In this document: positions 6,088 through 39,942 of the stretch, piece after piece | Numbering within the stretch: position 1 is the first letter of the stretch | How the letters are laid out: every line of letters starts with the position of its first letter | Notes under the pieces: model-generated | Told to the model about the DNA's origin: nothing | Seen by the model: the letters and a program-made list of their open reading frames with translations, nothing else | Databases searched by the model: none | Source of the DNA: an uncultured Thermoguttaceae bacterium | GTDB lineage: Bacteria; Planctomycetota; Planctomycetia; Pirellulales; Thermoguttaceae | Assembly: GCA_938042245.1 (NCBI GenBank) | Contig: CALIRO010000040.1 | Span: 1-64,000, forward strand | Direction of reading: 5' to 3' | DNA: 64,000 bases | Position numbers and translations under genes: made by a program

Positions 6088-6924
6088 CTACCCTCCCTTG
6101 GCTGAGCTTGGTTGTCCGGCTTCGGCGCTCATGGGGGCCTGGGGCACGACGACCGGCTGAGCGGTGCTTGGATGCCGAACTAATATCAACTCCGCGGCAT
6201 AAATTTTCCGAAGGATCTCTGGCTGCATGAGTTGCTCAGGCGTCCCGTCAAAAACCTTCCGTCCTTCCTGGAGGGCCAAAATCCGCTGACTATCTAGGGC
6301 GGCGGTATTGACATCGTGGGTAACTGTGAGGATGGTGCGGCCCGCTCGGTTCAATCGCTGCAAAAGGCGTCGGATCTCGGCCTGGTGGCGATAATCTAAA
6401 AACGTAGTCGGTTCATCTAGCAGGAGCACTTCCGCTCCTTGAGCCAGAGCCGCTGCCAGAAACACCTTCTGCCGTTCGCCGCCGCTTAAGGTTTCCAGCA
6501 GTCGGTTGGCCAGATCGGCCACTTGGGTGGCCTCTATGGCCTGACGGGCCGCCTGCCGGTCCTCCGGTTGGATCGTCGTAAAAGGGCTCAAATACGGATA
6601 CCGCCCCAACAGGACAAACTCTTCGACACTAAAAGGCGGCAGTCGGCCGTCGGCCTGCGGAACATAGCTGATTCGTTGGGCCAATTCCTTTTGAGGATAT
6701 TCTTCCAGCATGCGACCGAACCAGCGGATCACGCCTTGGCCGCCCCGGTAAATCCCATTGAGGCATTTTAACAGGGTGGTTTTGCCGGCACCGTTCGGCC
6801 CAATAATCGACACATATTCCCCATGCCGGATCTGAAAAGAAATATCCTCCAAGACCCTCTTGTCTCCAAACCAGAAGGAAAAACCCGTTACTTCCAAAGC
6901 AATGTCGTGTCTGTCTTCGCTCAT
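6088..6924 (-). CDS. ABC transporter ATP-binding protein, iron-siderophore/cobalamin type
   Basis: ATPase subunit of the FepC/BtuD class, which drives import of ferric siderophores, haem or cobalamin. Walker A GPNGAGKTT is at residues 42-50, the signature LSGGERQ at 146-152 and Walker B VLLLDEP near 166-172, followed by the switch His in TVTHD. I start at the ATG at 6924 (278 residues). The longer frame upstream (to 7188) adds a basic, unconserved leader. No permease or binding-protein gene is next to it, so its partners must lie elsewhere. The C-terminal 25 residues are Pro/Ala/Ser-rich and not part of the fold. Confidence 0.88.
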   Translation of the reverse strand: MSEDRHDIALEVTGFSFWFGDKRVLEDISFQIRHGEYVSIIGPNGAGKTTLLKCLNGIYRGGQGVIRWFGRMLEEYPQKELAQRISYVPQADGRLPPFSVEEFVLLGRYPYLSPFTTIQPEDRQAARQAIEATQVADLANRLLETLSGGERQKVFLAAALAQGAEVLLLDEPTTFLDYRHQAEIRRLLQRLNRAGRTILTVTHDVNTAALDSQRILALQEGRKVFDGTPEQLMQPEILRKIYAAELILVRHPSTAQPVVVPQAPMSAEAGQPSSAKGG

Positions 6925-7523
6925 CCCAGCAACTCCAGCGAAAGAAAACAATCCAAAACCGATACGCTCAATCCGATTCCCACCAACTGAGGCGTGCCTT
7001 AGGGAGTCCAAAACGAAAATTCTAAAATGTTCAAATGTTTCTTTTGCGCTCTTAGCAGCGGTGGTTATGTCCGAGGCTCCTAATTTCTGTTTCTTTCTTT
7101 TACCTTGGAAGAGTCCGAGATTGGGGAAGGTTGCCTCGGCGCATTGGCTGGACCTTCTCTTTCTATCTTTTCTTTTCCTACTCTTCAAGAAAGCCCCCTG
7201 CCAGAGGAAGAGGGTGGGGGGCTCCGGCCGAGGACGCAGGCGGGGAGGGCTCCTCAGCTGGCCAACCTAGCGATTGGGTGCCCTTTGCCCCCGCAGCAGG
7301 GGCAGATATACCCCGAAGCGGCCCAAGGTGTTTGGATTCCCGCTTGGGCGGGAATAACAAGCTGAGCTTCTCCCGTCAGGCAGAGGCCAATGCGGTCGAA
7401 GGCTGGGCGCTGCGAGCAGGTGCGGGCGGGAAGCCTGCTTTCTCAGGAGGCTTCCTCAGCCTGACCCTCTCCTACCGTGGGGGGGGTTGATTTGGAGGTG
7501 CTGGGTTCTGGAAGGCATCGGTT
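6925..7523. other. Repeat-rich spacer upstream of glnA
   Basis: No gene is visible. The region contains inverted repeats, for example TGCCCC-CGCAGCA-GGGGCA near 7284-7303. It also has a fragment (GGATTCCCGCTTGGGCGGGAATAAC near 7333) resembling the middle of the MITE-like elements. Frames here are not credible proteins. Confidence 0.45.
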
Positions 7524-36102: not shown

Positions 36103-38352
36103 ATGGGAAAGCTCAAACCGATTGGCATTGATTTAGGTACGACGAATTCCTCGGTGGCTTGGGTAGATCATGCAGGACGAACGGCGATGGTCCCCAACAG
36201 TGAGGGGGATATACTTACTCCAAGTGTGGTATTTTTTGATGATTATGAGGTGATTGTAGGCAAAGAGGCCCGAGCTGCCGCTATCCTCTACCCCGATCGG
36301 GTGGCTGAGTGCGTCAAACGCGACATCGGCCAACCCTACTACAGCAAACCGATCCGAGGCCAATATCTGCCGCCCGAAGTCATCCAGGCTTGCATCCTGC
36401 GGAAACTCAAAGCGGATATCCTCCACACGTTGGGCCCGGATACCGCGGTGGTCATTACCGTACCCGCCTATTTCGACGAATTGCGGCGAAAAGCCACGGC
36501 CGATGCGGGGGAAATGGCCGGGCTTCGTGTGTTGGACATTGTTAATGAGCCGACTGCCGCCGCTCTTTCGTTTGGCGAAGCTGTGGGATTTTTAACCCCC
36601 TCGGGCAGCCCAAAAGAAGAAATGACGGTGATGGTCTATGATCTGGGCGGCGGCACCTTCGACGTAACTCTTCTGCACCTGGCCCCTGGCAGCATCCGAA
36701 CCATCGCTACCGACGGCGATGTGCAGTTGGGCGGCCGCGATTGGGATATGCGCCTGGTCGATTATGTGGCCGAGCAATTCAAAGCCATCCATGGATTGGA
36801 CCCTCGGCAAACGCCAGTGAGTCTGCAACGGCTGGTGGAAGCCTGCGTGGAAGCTAAACATACCCTTAGCGCCCGGATGAAAACCAAAGTCCGGGTGGTC
36901 CATGAAGGCCGAATCGCCGATATCGAACTGACCCGAGAAAAGTTTGAAGAGCTGACCGCCGACCTTTTGGAACGGACGGCCTATACGTGTCGGCAACTGT
37001 TGGCGGCCGCCAAAATGGATTGGTCCCAAATAAGCCGAATCCTCTTGGTCGGCGGTTCCACCCGCATGCCGATGGTCAGCCGAATGCTCAAACAAATTTC
37101 CGGCATGGACCCAGATCATACGGTAAATCCCGATGAGGCGGTGGCTCGTGGAGCGGCCCAATATGCAGCCTACATTTTAGCGAAACAAGGCGGCCTCTAC
37201 AGCCGTCCAAGTTTCGAGGTCGTCAACGTCAATGCCCACAGTCTGGGCGTCGAAGGCATCGACCCGGATACGATGCGCAAAACCAATGTGATTCTGATTC
37301 CTCGGAATACGCCGCTGCCGGCTCGGTTTACAGAACGTTTTGCCACCAAAACAGATAATCAGCGTTCCATTGTCATCCAAATCCTGGAGGGGGAAAGCAC
37401 CCTTCCGTCGGAATGTACTCCGATTGCCCGCACCGTTCTCCGGGACCTACCAGCAGGGCTGCCGAAGGGTTGGCCAGTGGAGGTAACATTTGAATATGGT
37501 ACCAATGGCCGACTCTCTGTCCGAGCTGTTGTCCCAGGCACCCAACGCGAAGTCCAATTAGAATTGGAACGGGACCGGGGATATACCTCGGAAGGCATTG
37601 CCCGGTGGCGGCAGGTAATGGCCGGCAGTCCGGGATTTGGAGATTTTGAGCGACTGTTGCAGGAGATGTTGCAGGGGGGCCCGGCTCAGGCGGGTCTGGG
37701 GGGAGCTGGAGGTGCTTGGGTAGCCACTCCGCTTCCACCGGAACCGGCCAACTGGGCCATGCCGATCGGTCCTGCCTTGGCCCCACCCCTTGGGCCGCTC
37801 CAGACTGCGGCTTCCTCCAGCAGTTTGCCCCCTGCCGGTCCTTCCGGTTCAACCTCCATAAGCCCAATGGCCATGCCTGCTATGGGTGGTCCTGGCACCA
37901 GCTTGGCCGGACCTAGCTTGCCCTCCCCGACAGCAATCGCTCCTTCCCCTAGAGCTACCCCTCCAGACTGGATGGTCAGTGCGGTGGGGCCATCTGGGTT
38001 AGGCAGTTCGGCTGGTATGGCTGCATCTACCAGCTTGGCAGCAGCAGGAGGATTTGGGGGGAGCGGTTTAGGGGGGGCGATGGCGGCATCCTTCGTCCCA
38101 GCATCTGGGCCTCCTGGGCCGCCCTCGGGTGGCAGTGGCCTTGGCATGGCCGGTTCGCCTGCAGCCCCTCCCTCTGCTGACGCTGTGGCTGCCCAAACGG
38201 CGGTGGAACTGTCTGACCAAATGGCCGGTTCAACCACCTCGCTTCGCATAGTCAGCCTGGTGGGCCATGTCCTGTTTGCCTTGTTGGGATTAGCCTTGGG
38301 CTATTGGGTCTTGCATCAATGGCATCCAGAACAATTTCCTCTTCCGTGGTAA
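36103..38352 (+). CDS. Membrane-anchored Hsp70-like chaperone
   Basis: An Hsp70 nucleotide-binding domain (about 1-385) opens with IGIDLGTTNSSVAWVD, with further phosphate and adenosine motifs at VYDLGGGTFDVT and LLVGGSTRMPMV. A short substrate-binding beta domain runs to about 500. It has no DnaK-like helical lid. Instead there is a roughly 195-residue Gly/Pro/Ala/Ser-rich linker (about 520-715) and a single C-terminal membrane span (about 716-736, HVLFALLGLALGYWVL), giving a tail-anchored protein with the chaperone part most likely cytoplasmic. GGAG precedes the ATG. A second Hsp70 follows 45 bp later. No dnaJ or grpE is adjacent. Confidence 0.9.
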   Translation: MGKLKPIGIDLGTTNSSVAWVDHAGRTAMVPNSEGDILTPSVVFFDDYEVIVGKEARAAAILYPDRVAECVKRDIGQPYYSKPIRGQYLPPEVIQACILRKLKADILHTLGPDTAVVITVPAYFDELRRKATADAGEMAGLRVLDIVNEPTAAALSFGEAVGFLTPSGSPKEEMTVMVYDLGGGTFDVTLLHLAPGSIRTIATDGDVQLGGRDWDMRLVDYVAEQFKAIHGLDPRQTPVSLQRLVEACVEAKHTLSARMKTKVRVVHEGRIADIELTREKFEELTADLLERTAYTCRQLLAAAKMDWSQISRILLVGGSTRMPMVSRMLKQISGMDPDHTVNPDEAVARGAAQYAAYILAKQGGLYSRPSFEVVNVNAHSLGVEGIDPDTMRKTNVILIPRNTPLPARFTERFATKTDNQRSIVIQILEGESTLPSECTPIARTVLRDLPAGLPKGWPVEVTFEYGTNGRLSVRAVVPGTQREVQLELERDRGYTSEGIARWRQVMAGSPGFGDFERLLQEMLQGGPAQAGLGGAGGAWVATPLPPEPANWAMPIGPALAPPLGPLQTAASSSSLPPAGPSGSTSISPMAMPAMGGPGTSLAGPSLPSPTAIAPSPRATPPDWMVSAVGPSGLGSSAGMAASTSLAAAGGFGGSGLGGAMAASFVPASGPPGPPSGGSGLGMAGSPAAPPSADAVAAQTAVELSDQMAGSTTSLRIVSLVGHVLFALLGLALGYWVLHQWHPEQFPLPW

Positions 38353-38397
38353 ACAGAAAACGGTACCCCCTTATTTGGATCTTGATATTGGACCCCT

Positions 38398-39942
38398 ATG
38401 GCCAAACAACCCCCTGCTATTGGAATTGATCTGGGCACCACCTTTTCAGTAGTGGCTATGCTGAATGAGGCTGGCCAGCCGGAAACCTTGGTCAATGCGG
38501 AGGGCGATCGGCTCACGCCGAGCTTGGTGCTTTTCGACAACGATCAGGTCATCGTCGGCAAAGAGGCCCTGAAGGCCTTGGCCACCGAAGCCGAGTGGGT
38601 AGCCGAGTGCTCCAAACGGGACATCGGCCATCGGGTCTTCCACAAGGCCATCGGCGGCAAACAGTATCCGCCGGAAGTGATCGAGGCATTCATTTTGAAT
38701 AAACTTCGGGTGGATACGACGGCCCGGATCGGCGAGTATGAAAAAGTGGTTATTACGGTGCCTGCCTATTTCGACGAGGTGCGGCGAAAAGCCACCCAAG
38801 ACGCCGGCTACATGGCCGGTTTCGAAGTGATGGATATTATCAACGAACCGACCGCGGCGGCAGTAGCCTTCGGCTATGAAAAGGGCTTCCTTACTCCCGA
38901 TGGAATGACTCATAAGCCGGAAATTGTCTTGGTCTATGATCTCGGTGGCGGGACCTTCGATGTAACGGTCATGGAGATCCACGGCCGGGAGTTTCGCGCC
39001 TTGGCCACCGACGGCGATGTGCAACTAGGCGGTTTTGACTGGGATCAACGCCTGGTGGATTTGGTGGCCGAGGCCTTTGCCCGACAACATTTCTTGGACC
39101 CCCGGGAAGACCCCCGGGCAGCGGGCAAACTCTGGCGGGAATGCGAAGAAGCCAAACGCACCCTTTCGGTCCGGCCCAAGACCTTTGTGCCCGTGGATTT
39201 TATGGGCCGAACCGCTCGCATCGAAATTACTCGCCAGCAATTTGAAGAAGCCACCCAAGACCTCCTGGACCGAACCCGATTCACCACAGAACAGACTCTG
39301 CGAGCAGCCGGACTTACCTGGGAAAAAGTCGATCGAGTGTTGCTGGTCGGAGGGGCCACCCGAATGCCCATGGTTCGCCAAATGCTCCGGAAACTTTCCG
39401 GCATGGAACCCGACGCTTCGGTCGAAGCCGACGAGGCCGTCGCCCACGGAGCAGCTCTGCATGCCGGCTTGCTTTTGGCCAAAAGTCAAGGAAAACCTCG
39501 CATCTTTAAGATCAAAAACGTCAACTCCCATAGTCTCGGCGTGGTGGGGATCGATCCGCTGACCAAACGTCGGCGAAACGGAATTGTCATCCCTCGAAAC
39601 ACACCCCTGCCTATGACTGCCCGCCGAATCTTCCGCACCCAAAAAGAAAACCAGCGATCCATCTTGGTCGAAGTCGTCGAAGGGGAAAGCCCCTCGGCCG
39701 ACGACTGCACCCTAATCGGCCGATGCTCCGTCCGAAACCTTCCCCCAGGTCTGCCCGCCAAAACCCCCGTCCATGTCTATTTCCACTACCGAACCAATGG
39801 CCGACTGAAAGTTCGCGTCGAAGTGCCCAACACCGACGCTAAAATTGAAACCGAATTCACCCGAGAAAATAGTCTGCCCAAGGAGCATCTAGACGGCTGG
39901 CGAAAATACATTTGCGGCAAAGAACCTACTGACTACATGTAA
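38398..39942 (+). CDS. Lidless Hsp70-like chaperone
   Basis: A second Hsp70 paralogue of 514 residues, soluble. The ATPase domain has IGIDLGTTFSVVAM at the start, IVNDEPTAAA-equivalent IINEPTAAAVAFGY, YDLGGGTFDVTV and LLVGGATRMPM. The beta part of the substrate domain follows (about 390-500), and then the protein ends without the helical lid. It shares the local arrangement and many residues with the preceding gene, so the pair arose by duplication. It is probably co-transcribed with the anchored copy, and the two may form one system of soluble plus membrane-bound forms. Confidence 0.92.
   Translation: MAKQPPAIGIDLGTTFSVVAMLNEAGQPETLVNAEGDRLTPSLVLFDNDQVIVGKEALKALATEAEWVAECSKRDIGHRVFHKAIGGKQYPPEVIEAFILNKLRVDTTARIGEYEKVVITVPAYFDEVRRKATQDAGYMAGFEVMDIINEPTAAAVAFGYEKGFLTPDGMTHKPEIVLVYDLGGGTFDVTVMEIHGREFRALATDGDVQLGGFDWDQRLVDLVAEAFARQHFLDPREDPRAAGKLWRECEEAKRTLSVRPKTFVPVDFMGRTARIEITRQQFEEATQDLLDRTRFTTEQTLRAAGLTWEKVDRVLLVGGATRMPMVRQMLRKLSGMEPDASVEADEAVAHGAALHAGLLLAKSQGKPRIFKIKNVNSHSLGVVGIDPLTKRRRNGIVIPRNTPLPMTARRIFRTQKENQRSILVEVVEGESPSADDCTLIGRCSVRNLPPGLPAKTPVHVYFHYRTNGRLKVRVEVPNTDAKIETEFTRENSLPKEHLDGWRKYICGKEPTDYM

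Follow-up and report, generated by a model that had tools for sequence, protein, structure and literature searches.

Two adjacent lidless Hsp70 genes of a Thermoguttaceae bacterium, one with a predicted membrane anchor, are altered at the co-chaperone contact residues

Two lidless Hsp70 proteins encoded side by side

The DNA analysed here (hereafter the window) comprises 64,000 nucleotides of contig CALIRO010000040.1 (C40), which belongs to the 4.65-Mb, ~93% complete genome of an uncultured Thermoguttaceae bacterium (Planctomycetota; Pirellulales). It contains two adjacent Hsp70 genes, hereafter A and B, which lie on the same (plus) strand with an intergenic gap of 45 nt (Table 1). Both proteins matched the Pfam HSP70 profile PF00012 (E values of 2.7e-117 for A and 4.9e-117 for B), and the best matching stretches stopped at profile positions 510 (A) and 507 (B) of 599, most of the lid lying beyond. 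The cut-offs of the NCBIfam DnaK equivalogs were missed by both, with 396 (A) and 375 (B) bits vs 648 for NF001413, and 388 (A) and 362 (B) bits vs 822.55 for TIGR02350. The ATPase residues D8, K70, E171, D194, T199 and D201 (DnaK numbering, used throughout for these positions) were present in A and B, the ATP site of A starting at its residue 8. According to the alignment, most of the segment equivalent to DnaK 76-101 and half of that equivalent to 286-297, which includes the GrpE-signature loop, are gone from the nucleotide-binding domain (NBD) of A.

AlphaFold2 models were obtained for A (from a 20-sequence alignment) and for B (from 35 sequences). The model of A is folded to about residue 525 and disordered from there to a C-terminal helix, and that of B, with a mean predicted local distance difference test (pLDDT) score of 89.5, consists of the NBD, the substrate-binding beta domain (SBD-beta) and one 12-residue helix, after which the protein ends. 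A lid is thus absent from both models. This agrees with a first-pass annotation of the sequence, which had described a pair of lidless Hsp70s with B stopping at the end of the substrate beta domain; the model adds the short helix. In Foldseek searches the full-length B model resembled the domain-docked, ATP-state DnaK structure 5nro_A (template modelling (TM) score 0.88, 2.5 A) and fitted the undocked, ADP-state structure 2kho more poorly (TM score 0.60, 17.5 A), a likeness that counts for little because the predictor may favour the docked state. The two genes are not one gene split in two, since each has a complete NBD and SBD-beta and the proteins fall into separate clades. A promoter and terminator scan of the locus gave signals that were not clearly above those of shuffled sequences.

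Substitutions at the J-domain and allosteric contacts

In both window proteins the DnaK-type R167 and D393 are absent, and Asp and Asn, respectively, are found instead. The network of R167, D393 and D481 is reported to be general to Hsp70s and to be the site where J-proteins switch them on, R167 and D393 being invariant in 2,884 Hsp70s (404 + 1,560 + 586 + 334) (PMC7289447). As described in PMC8215388, the aspartate of the DnaJ HPD motif (D35) bonds R167 and Q378 of DnaK, and H33 bonds the L391 backbone. D481 is also reported to pair with K155 besides R167, and the mutations D481A and D481K to lift basal ATPase activity 70- and 84-fold (PMC4595643).

The columns were counted in a clade alignment of 94 rows (21 A, 36 B, 29 single relatives, and 3 and 5 others), which includes near-identical sequences and five long-tailed relatives, and in a control set of 21 DnaKs, made up of the E. 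coli protein and 20 taken from genomes related to this one. Rows dropped beforehand were L150, a likely duplicate of L112, and the duplicates L109, L110, L113, L115 and L123; the counts also omit two remote Hsp70s of this genome. At R167 the clade has Asp in 89 rows, Gly in 4 and Glu in 1, and at I483 it has Arg in 93 and Thr in 1, the controls having Arg and Ile, respectively, in 21/21. Q378, kept by all 21 controls, is replaced in 92/94 rows (by His, Tyr or Arg) and kept in two. The D393 column (Asp in 21/21 controls) holds Asn in 72 rows, Asp in 20, and Glu and Ser in one each, so that D393 is not uniformly lost; Asp is retained chiefly in the single relatives. The K155 position is Ala in 18/21 A and Gln in 36/36 B proteins, and further shifts of the interface, counted over the 94 rows, are N147 to Asp (67), D148 to Glu (65), Q150 to Arg (89) and Q152 to Lys (86). 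Among 29 frames fetched later, at least one of them a duplicate, Asp stood at the R167 motif in all (28 by pattern, the 29th by eye). R167 is retained in HscA and HscC of E. coli and in the DnaK of this genome.

Two more parts of the NBD are reduced. Only 3 of the 26 residues of the DnaK 76-101 segment are left in 94/94 rows, as in HscC, and the 286-297 segment (GrpE-signature loop 290-295) retains 6 of 12 residues in 94/94, with all 12 present in both DnaKs compared. In SBD-beta, the stretch between 399 and 410 (loop L1,2) has 17 residues vs 12 in DnaK; this loop is hard to align and the M404 column, which differs between two alignments, is therefore unsure. With few exceptions among the A and B proteins, the pocket positions F426, V436, I438 and V440 carry hydrophobic residues, and a polar residue occupies the arch position A429 in most of these proteins. 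Neither the changed J-domain and allosteric contacts nor the shortened GrpE loop had been mentioned in the first-pass annotation. Other near-fixed differences from DnaK in SBD-beta are L397H, N451C and Q442E, which include a conserved Cys.

The consequences of such changes are known in part from mutants. DnaK R167D and Ssq1 R207D are reported to combine raised basal ATPase activity with a poor response to J-protein plus substrate (PMC7289447), DnaK I483D is described as locked in a hydrolysis-stimulating state (PMC7968864), and I483 contacts D148, R151 and Q152 in ATP-bound DnaK (PMC8910936). Taking the residue columns and these mutants together, the clade is altered by descent at positions where DnaK mutants are uncoupled. 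Judging from sequence, either the clade is uncoupled or R483 builds a new interface with D167 and E148.

The R167 change does not seem to be forced by the loss of the lid, because a lidless Hsp70 of 510 amino acids encoded on a Rhodococcus plasmid (WP_206004638.1) retains R167, as well as Q378 and D393. The explanation of R167D as a by-product of lid loss was rejected on this one contrary case. Like A and B, the plasmid protein lacks most of the 76-101 segment and has a short GrpE-loop region; it differs from them in the three retained residues and in being followed by TPR, grpE and FtsK/SpoIIIE-domain genes.

Table 1. Positions of genes, domains and altered residues
Feature	Position	Strand	Basis
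Gene A, predicted tail-anchored lidless Hsp70, 749 aa	36103..38352	+	Open reading frame; PF00012; clade A
A NBD (actin-like) to interdomain linker	36118..37215	+	Alignment with E. coli DnaK, HscA and HscC; model
A codon 145, Asp at DnaK R167 position (J-domain HPD contact)	36535..36537	+	Gapless motif alignment AGLRVLDIVNEP / AGLEVKRIINEP
A codon 375, Asn at DnaK linker D393 position	37225..37227	+	Alignment
A codon 470, Arg at DnaK I483 position (SBD-beta face docking on NBD)	37510..37512	+	Alignment
A disordered Pro/Gly/Ala/Ser linker, residues 526-715	37678..38247	+	pLDDT <50 over 526-710; composition
A predicted membrane span, residues 716-736, with GLALG (GxxxG)	38248..38310	+	Hydrophobicity 2.05; model helix
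A short C-terminal tail, end FPLPW, predicted outside	38311..38349	+	FPLPW or close variants recur in clade A
Gene B, soluble lidless Hsp70, 514 aa	38398..39942	+	Open reading frame; PF00012; clade B; pLDDT 89.5
B codon 146, Asp at DnaK R167 position	38833..38835	+	Alignment
B codon 469, Arg at DnaK I483 position	39802..39804	+	Alignment
B sole short helix after SBD-beta (residues 495-506), no lid	39880..39915	+	AlphaFold2 model
Class-B DnaJ of genome G028	L055 (G028:C249) 6182-7123, or slightly earlier ATG	minus	Two possible ATGs

Linker and predicted membrane span of protein A

The low-complexity linker of A measures ~190 residues, the most hydrophobic 21-residue stretch beginning at residue 716, and the value of roughly 195 residues in the first-pass annotation was thus right; its middle part is 77% Pro, Gly, Ser, Ala and Thr. 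After it the model has a single helix (residues 692-740), with pLDDT block means of 75-93 over 711-740 and ~45 before, and a 9-residue tail. A single hydrophobic span near the C-terminus, as in tail-anchored proteins, is therefore found in A both in the sequence and in the model.

The span previously noticed at the end of A proved to be conserved, being present in 31/31 complete A proteins (25 adjoining a B, one at 3.6 kb from a B and five without a B alongside; L080, cut by a contig end, was omitted) with a 21-residue Kyte-Doolittle mean of 1.44-3.11. A chance hydrophobic tail was accordingly rejected. As a contrast, 21 of 23 B tails were long enough to be scored, with a maximum of -0.07 (19-residue window); a B protein added later (L154) has a longer tail with hydrophobicity up to 1.21. 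GxxxG occurs within or beside the span in 23/31 A proteins, and many clade A proteins end in FPLPW or a near variant. Lys and Arg numbered 118 in the 20 residues before the span vs 41 in those after it (31 proteins; the stretch after the span often falls short of 20 residues), consistent with an Hsp70 part in the cytosol. A is probably tethered to the membrane by this span, and its Hsp70 head would face the cytosol.

The linker varies in length and sequence among relatives (~25-271 residues and 45-77% Pro, Gly, Ser, Ala and Thr by a fixed-offset count in 20 complete A proteins), and no homologue lacking it was seen, since linker and span were present in every complete A checked (20 and 31 proteins, respectively). 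When the genes were compared with those of two relatives from the same genus, the ratio of nonsynonymous to synonymous substitution (dN/dS) was 0.03-0.05 in the folded parts of both proteins, and the nonsynonymous difference (pN) was 0.45-0.49 in the A linker and 0.19-0.38 in the last 49 residues. These values indicate that the fold is strongly kept and the linker is not, the span region lying between.

Distribution and phylogeny

The main survey covered 147 Pirellulales genomes of at least 90% completeness. B was matched at E <= 1e-130 in 47 of them, and 37 were B-grade (>=59% identity). The search for orthologous pairs, which the first-pass annotation had proposed, was successful: by hand count, 17/37 B-grade genomes have an A match at most ~1.3 kb upstream of B on the same strand. 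A fixed soluble/anchored partnership, which it had also suggested, is supported only in part, as the B genes of the other 20 lack an adjoining A at the survey cut-off (contig ends may cut some, as in G020) and G030, G335 and G394 have an A-type gene and no B at the cut-off. In G037, one of the 20, A adjoins B and falls below the cut-off. The B-less A-type proteins L082 (G030), L161 (G394) and L160 (G335) all have a span; only L082 entered the tree. In a separate search of 40 genomes, the window's included, A lay directly before B in 15, as judged by position. A phylum-wide draw yielded relatives at E <= 1e-110 in 23/294 genomes, mostly as a single match. A scan of named GTDB genomes, which picks up close relatives, returned loci labelled as planctomycete in 18/18 cases, the closest named ones with 95% identity in B, and a tblastn search of plasmids gave no match above 42% identity among the 15 records listed of 265.

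In a quick tree of 95 rows, from which L087, L092 and L099 were additionally omitted, the A clade (n=21) and the B clade (n=36) had supports of 100 and 99 in the Shimodaira-Hasegawa-like approximate likelihood ratio test (SH-aLRT), both being nested in a larger planctomycete clade. Judged from the sequences, A and B are old paralogues within the Pirellulales. The mean column identity was 47% among A copies vs 69% among B copies over whole alignments, linker included. One clade A copy departs from the consensus at the ATPase residues. This is the A-type protein of G037 (L053 8450-10396, G037:C17), which has the span, a damaged ATP site (GATRS, IHDPMA, DLGGSKLD) and a place before an intact B, and which is perhaps a pseudo-ATPase anchor.

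Co-chaperone genes

The previous statement that no dnaJ or grpE is adjacent was confirmed by phmmer, which detected no J-domain or GrpE protein in the 64-kb window when this genome's own sequences were used as queries. Elsewhere in the genome, C47 carries dnaJ and grpE, C8 a class-B DnaJ and C11 a full-length DnaK. A J-domain altered to match R167D was looked for and rejected, since the HPD motif is unchanged in both J-domain proteins that the genome was found to encode. As the suppressor pair DnaK R167A / DnaJ D35N reported in PMC13012618 indicates, loss of the arginine can be compensated in the J-domain.

A search for a J-domain partner had been proposed in the first-pass annotation. Across 47 scanned sources (624 kb, partly overlapping, some of only 3.6-4.2 kb) a single J-domain match was obtained, a class-B DnaJ behind the pair in genome G028, and none in the window or the other sources; GrpE gave no match in the same 47 sources.

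Two observations concern other genes of this genome (G000). Its MreB profile matches fall on frames that are also matched by the Hsp70 profile, and thus no separate MreB was detected in the ~93% complete assembly. Further Hsp70-like matches lie on C50 (54085-55158 and 64648-65337), C2 and C70, and that at C50 54085-55158, within an 853-aa open frame, has Arg at the R167 position of the alignment.

Interpretation

The arrangement is real, conserved and unusual, and it amounts to a variation on Hsp70, not to a separate type of system. We favour, at about even chances, the reading that A and B are anciently duplicated Pirellulales Hsp70 ATPases working outside the DnaJ/GrpE cycle, with A at the cytosolic face of the membrane; the anatomy on which it builds comes from sequence and structure prediction. 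A narrower version, held only tentatively, is that R167D and I483R form a charge-inverted Hsp70 switch, free of DnaJ and GrpE, in a lidless peptide catcher of which one paralogue is leashed to the membrane and its twin is cytosolic.

Several facts weigh against the favoured reading. The main one against J-independence, and also the best lead to a J-partner, is the gene order in G028, where the class-B DnaJ has an intact HPD and starts 14 or 26 nt past the B stop on the same strand, so that A, B and the J-protein look co-transcribed. P419, which is contacted by the HPD proline, is retained in 94/94 rows. The shortening of the GrpE loop is not special, since HscA and HscC also lack the full loop, and the 94 rows are not 94 independent observations because the charge changes go back to a small number of events in ancestors. 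R483 could, besides, restore a salt bridge in the interface and leave allostery intact. Finally, biochemical, localisation or client data on these proteins were not found in a literature search.

According to the strongest rival, the pair is still J-dependent, the class-B DnaJ docking through the linker backbone and SBD-beta instead of R167, and represents a specialised membrane-proximal branch. The G028 gene order with its canonical HPD and the retained P419 speak for it, as does the presence of relatives of this DnaJ in 142/147 Pirellulales genomes. At least 105 of these genomes lack a B-grade match, and for this reason the G028 protein more likely serves DnaK. Both partners of the HPD aspartate, R167 and Q378, are replaced (94/94 and 92/94 rows), DnaK carrying R167D is poorly stimulated by J-protein as reported in PMC7289447, and no second J-domain match appeared in the 47 sources. 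We consider this rival unlikely.

Hsp110- or Ssz1-type partners regulate the nucleotide cycle of another Hsp70. In the same manner A and B might pair up as a heterodimer, with one partner controlling the cycle of the other and the pair being its own co-chaperone system anchored by A. That A adjoins B in 17/37 B genomes while other neighbours are little shared, that A copies diverge more among themselves than B copies do, and that in G037 an A protein with a damaged ATP site still has its span and still precedes an intact B would suit such a role. Direct contact between A and B is possible, but 20/37 B genes have no adjoining A at the cut-off and B-less A-type genes exist in G030, G335 and G394, which makes the heterodimer improbable. 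Least likely is a membrane-tethered sensor or scaffold that signals its ATP or peptide state through the tether and span instead of acting as a chaperone, for although GxxxG lies in or beside the span in 23/31 proteins and the arch position is mostly polar, Pfam finds no output domain in A, no neighbour gene is consistently shared and the pocket positions stay hydrophobic.

If A and B do act outside the DnaJ/GrpE cycle, their ATP turnover would be set by the proteins themselves or by peptide binding and not by a J-domain. Being lidless, they would bind extended peptides weakly and fast, with neither lid closure nor GrpE. The span would pin one copy, head inward, to the membrane, and the linker would provide reach, so that the head could sweep the cytosolic membrane face; its likely task would be to capture unfolded parts of proteins bound for the membrane or for export. 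B could perform the same task in the cytosol or join A at the membrane.

The surprise for a specialist lies in the altered co-chaperone interface. The clade has fixed a change known in the laboratory to blunt J-stimulation, together with the I483 change, the absence of a lid and a shortened GrpE loop, and it would, if the favoured reading is true, serve as a natural experiment on what the Hsp70 cycle can do without and on how allostery can be rewired. Neither these proteins nor a natural R167D Hsp70 were found described in the open-access literature, a search that takes in few subscription papers and hence does not prove their absence.

Comparison with known systems and other observations

With DnaK, to which they are 33-40% identical, A and B share the NBD and SBD-beta fold and the ATPase residues, the B model being near the docked ATP state; they differ in lacking the lid and most of 76-101, in the short GrpE loop and in R167D, D393N and I483R. 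HscC is like A and B in lacking most of 76-101, in its short GrpE loop and in its loop L1,2 insertion. Membership of A and B in HscC was nevertheless rejected, since HscC has R167, Q378 and D393, changed in A and B, and also 86 residues after position 503 (a shortened lid) that A and B do not have. In the quick tree HscC groups with DnaK and HscA on a very long branch, which makes its place unsure. The link to the membrane also differs: the J-partners of E. coli HscC, DjlB and DjlC, are reported to be tail-anchored, and a membrane site of action is proposed for HscC (PMC8215388), whereas here the Hsp70 itself would be anchored, by the span of A.

Among atypical eukaryotic Hsp70s, Ssz1 and HSPA14 have a truncated C-terminal part and STCH/HSPA13 is a membrane-associated truncated Hsp70. 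As generally described, the former differ from A and B in being bound to the ribosome or Zuo1 and in having no membrane span, and the latter in having no SBD and an N-terminal signal.

The pair is flanked in the window by genes for PurE, DprA and a GFO/IDH oxidoreductase. In a neighbour survey of 21 sources (the window and 20 loci, several with B and no A), no non-Hsp70 family was shared by more than 4, antisense frames aside; the same-genus genome G002 has several neighbours in common with the window. An operon with non-Hsp70 neighbours is thus not supported.

Other relatives show different C-terminal ends. In the Hsp70s L155, L156 and L157 (G450, G414 and G429), which belong to another family of the order, the tails are long, lack a strong span and end in motifs such as GFFGRKKR and GLFGKKKK, perhaps another membrane contact. 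The tail of L163 (G360:C216) ends in a zinc-ribbon-like CPHC...CPRC, and L070, L074, L077, L078 and L079 form a separate clade of the family with tails of 156-196 residues. A row of genes for a lidless Hsp70, a TPR protein, GrpE and FtsK/SpoIIIE was observed on the Rhodococcus pseudokoreensis plasmid NZ_CP070617.1 (L167), and may represent another specialised Hsp70 system.

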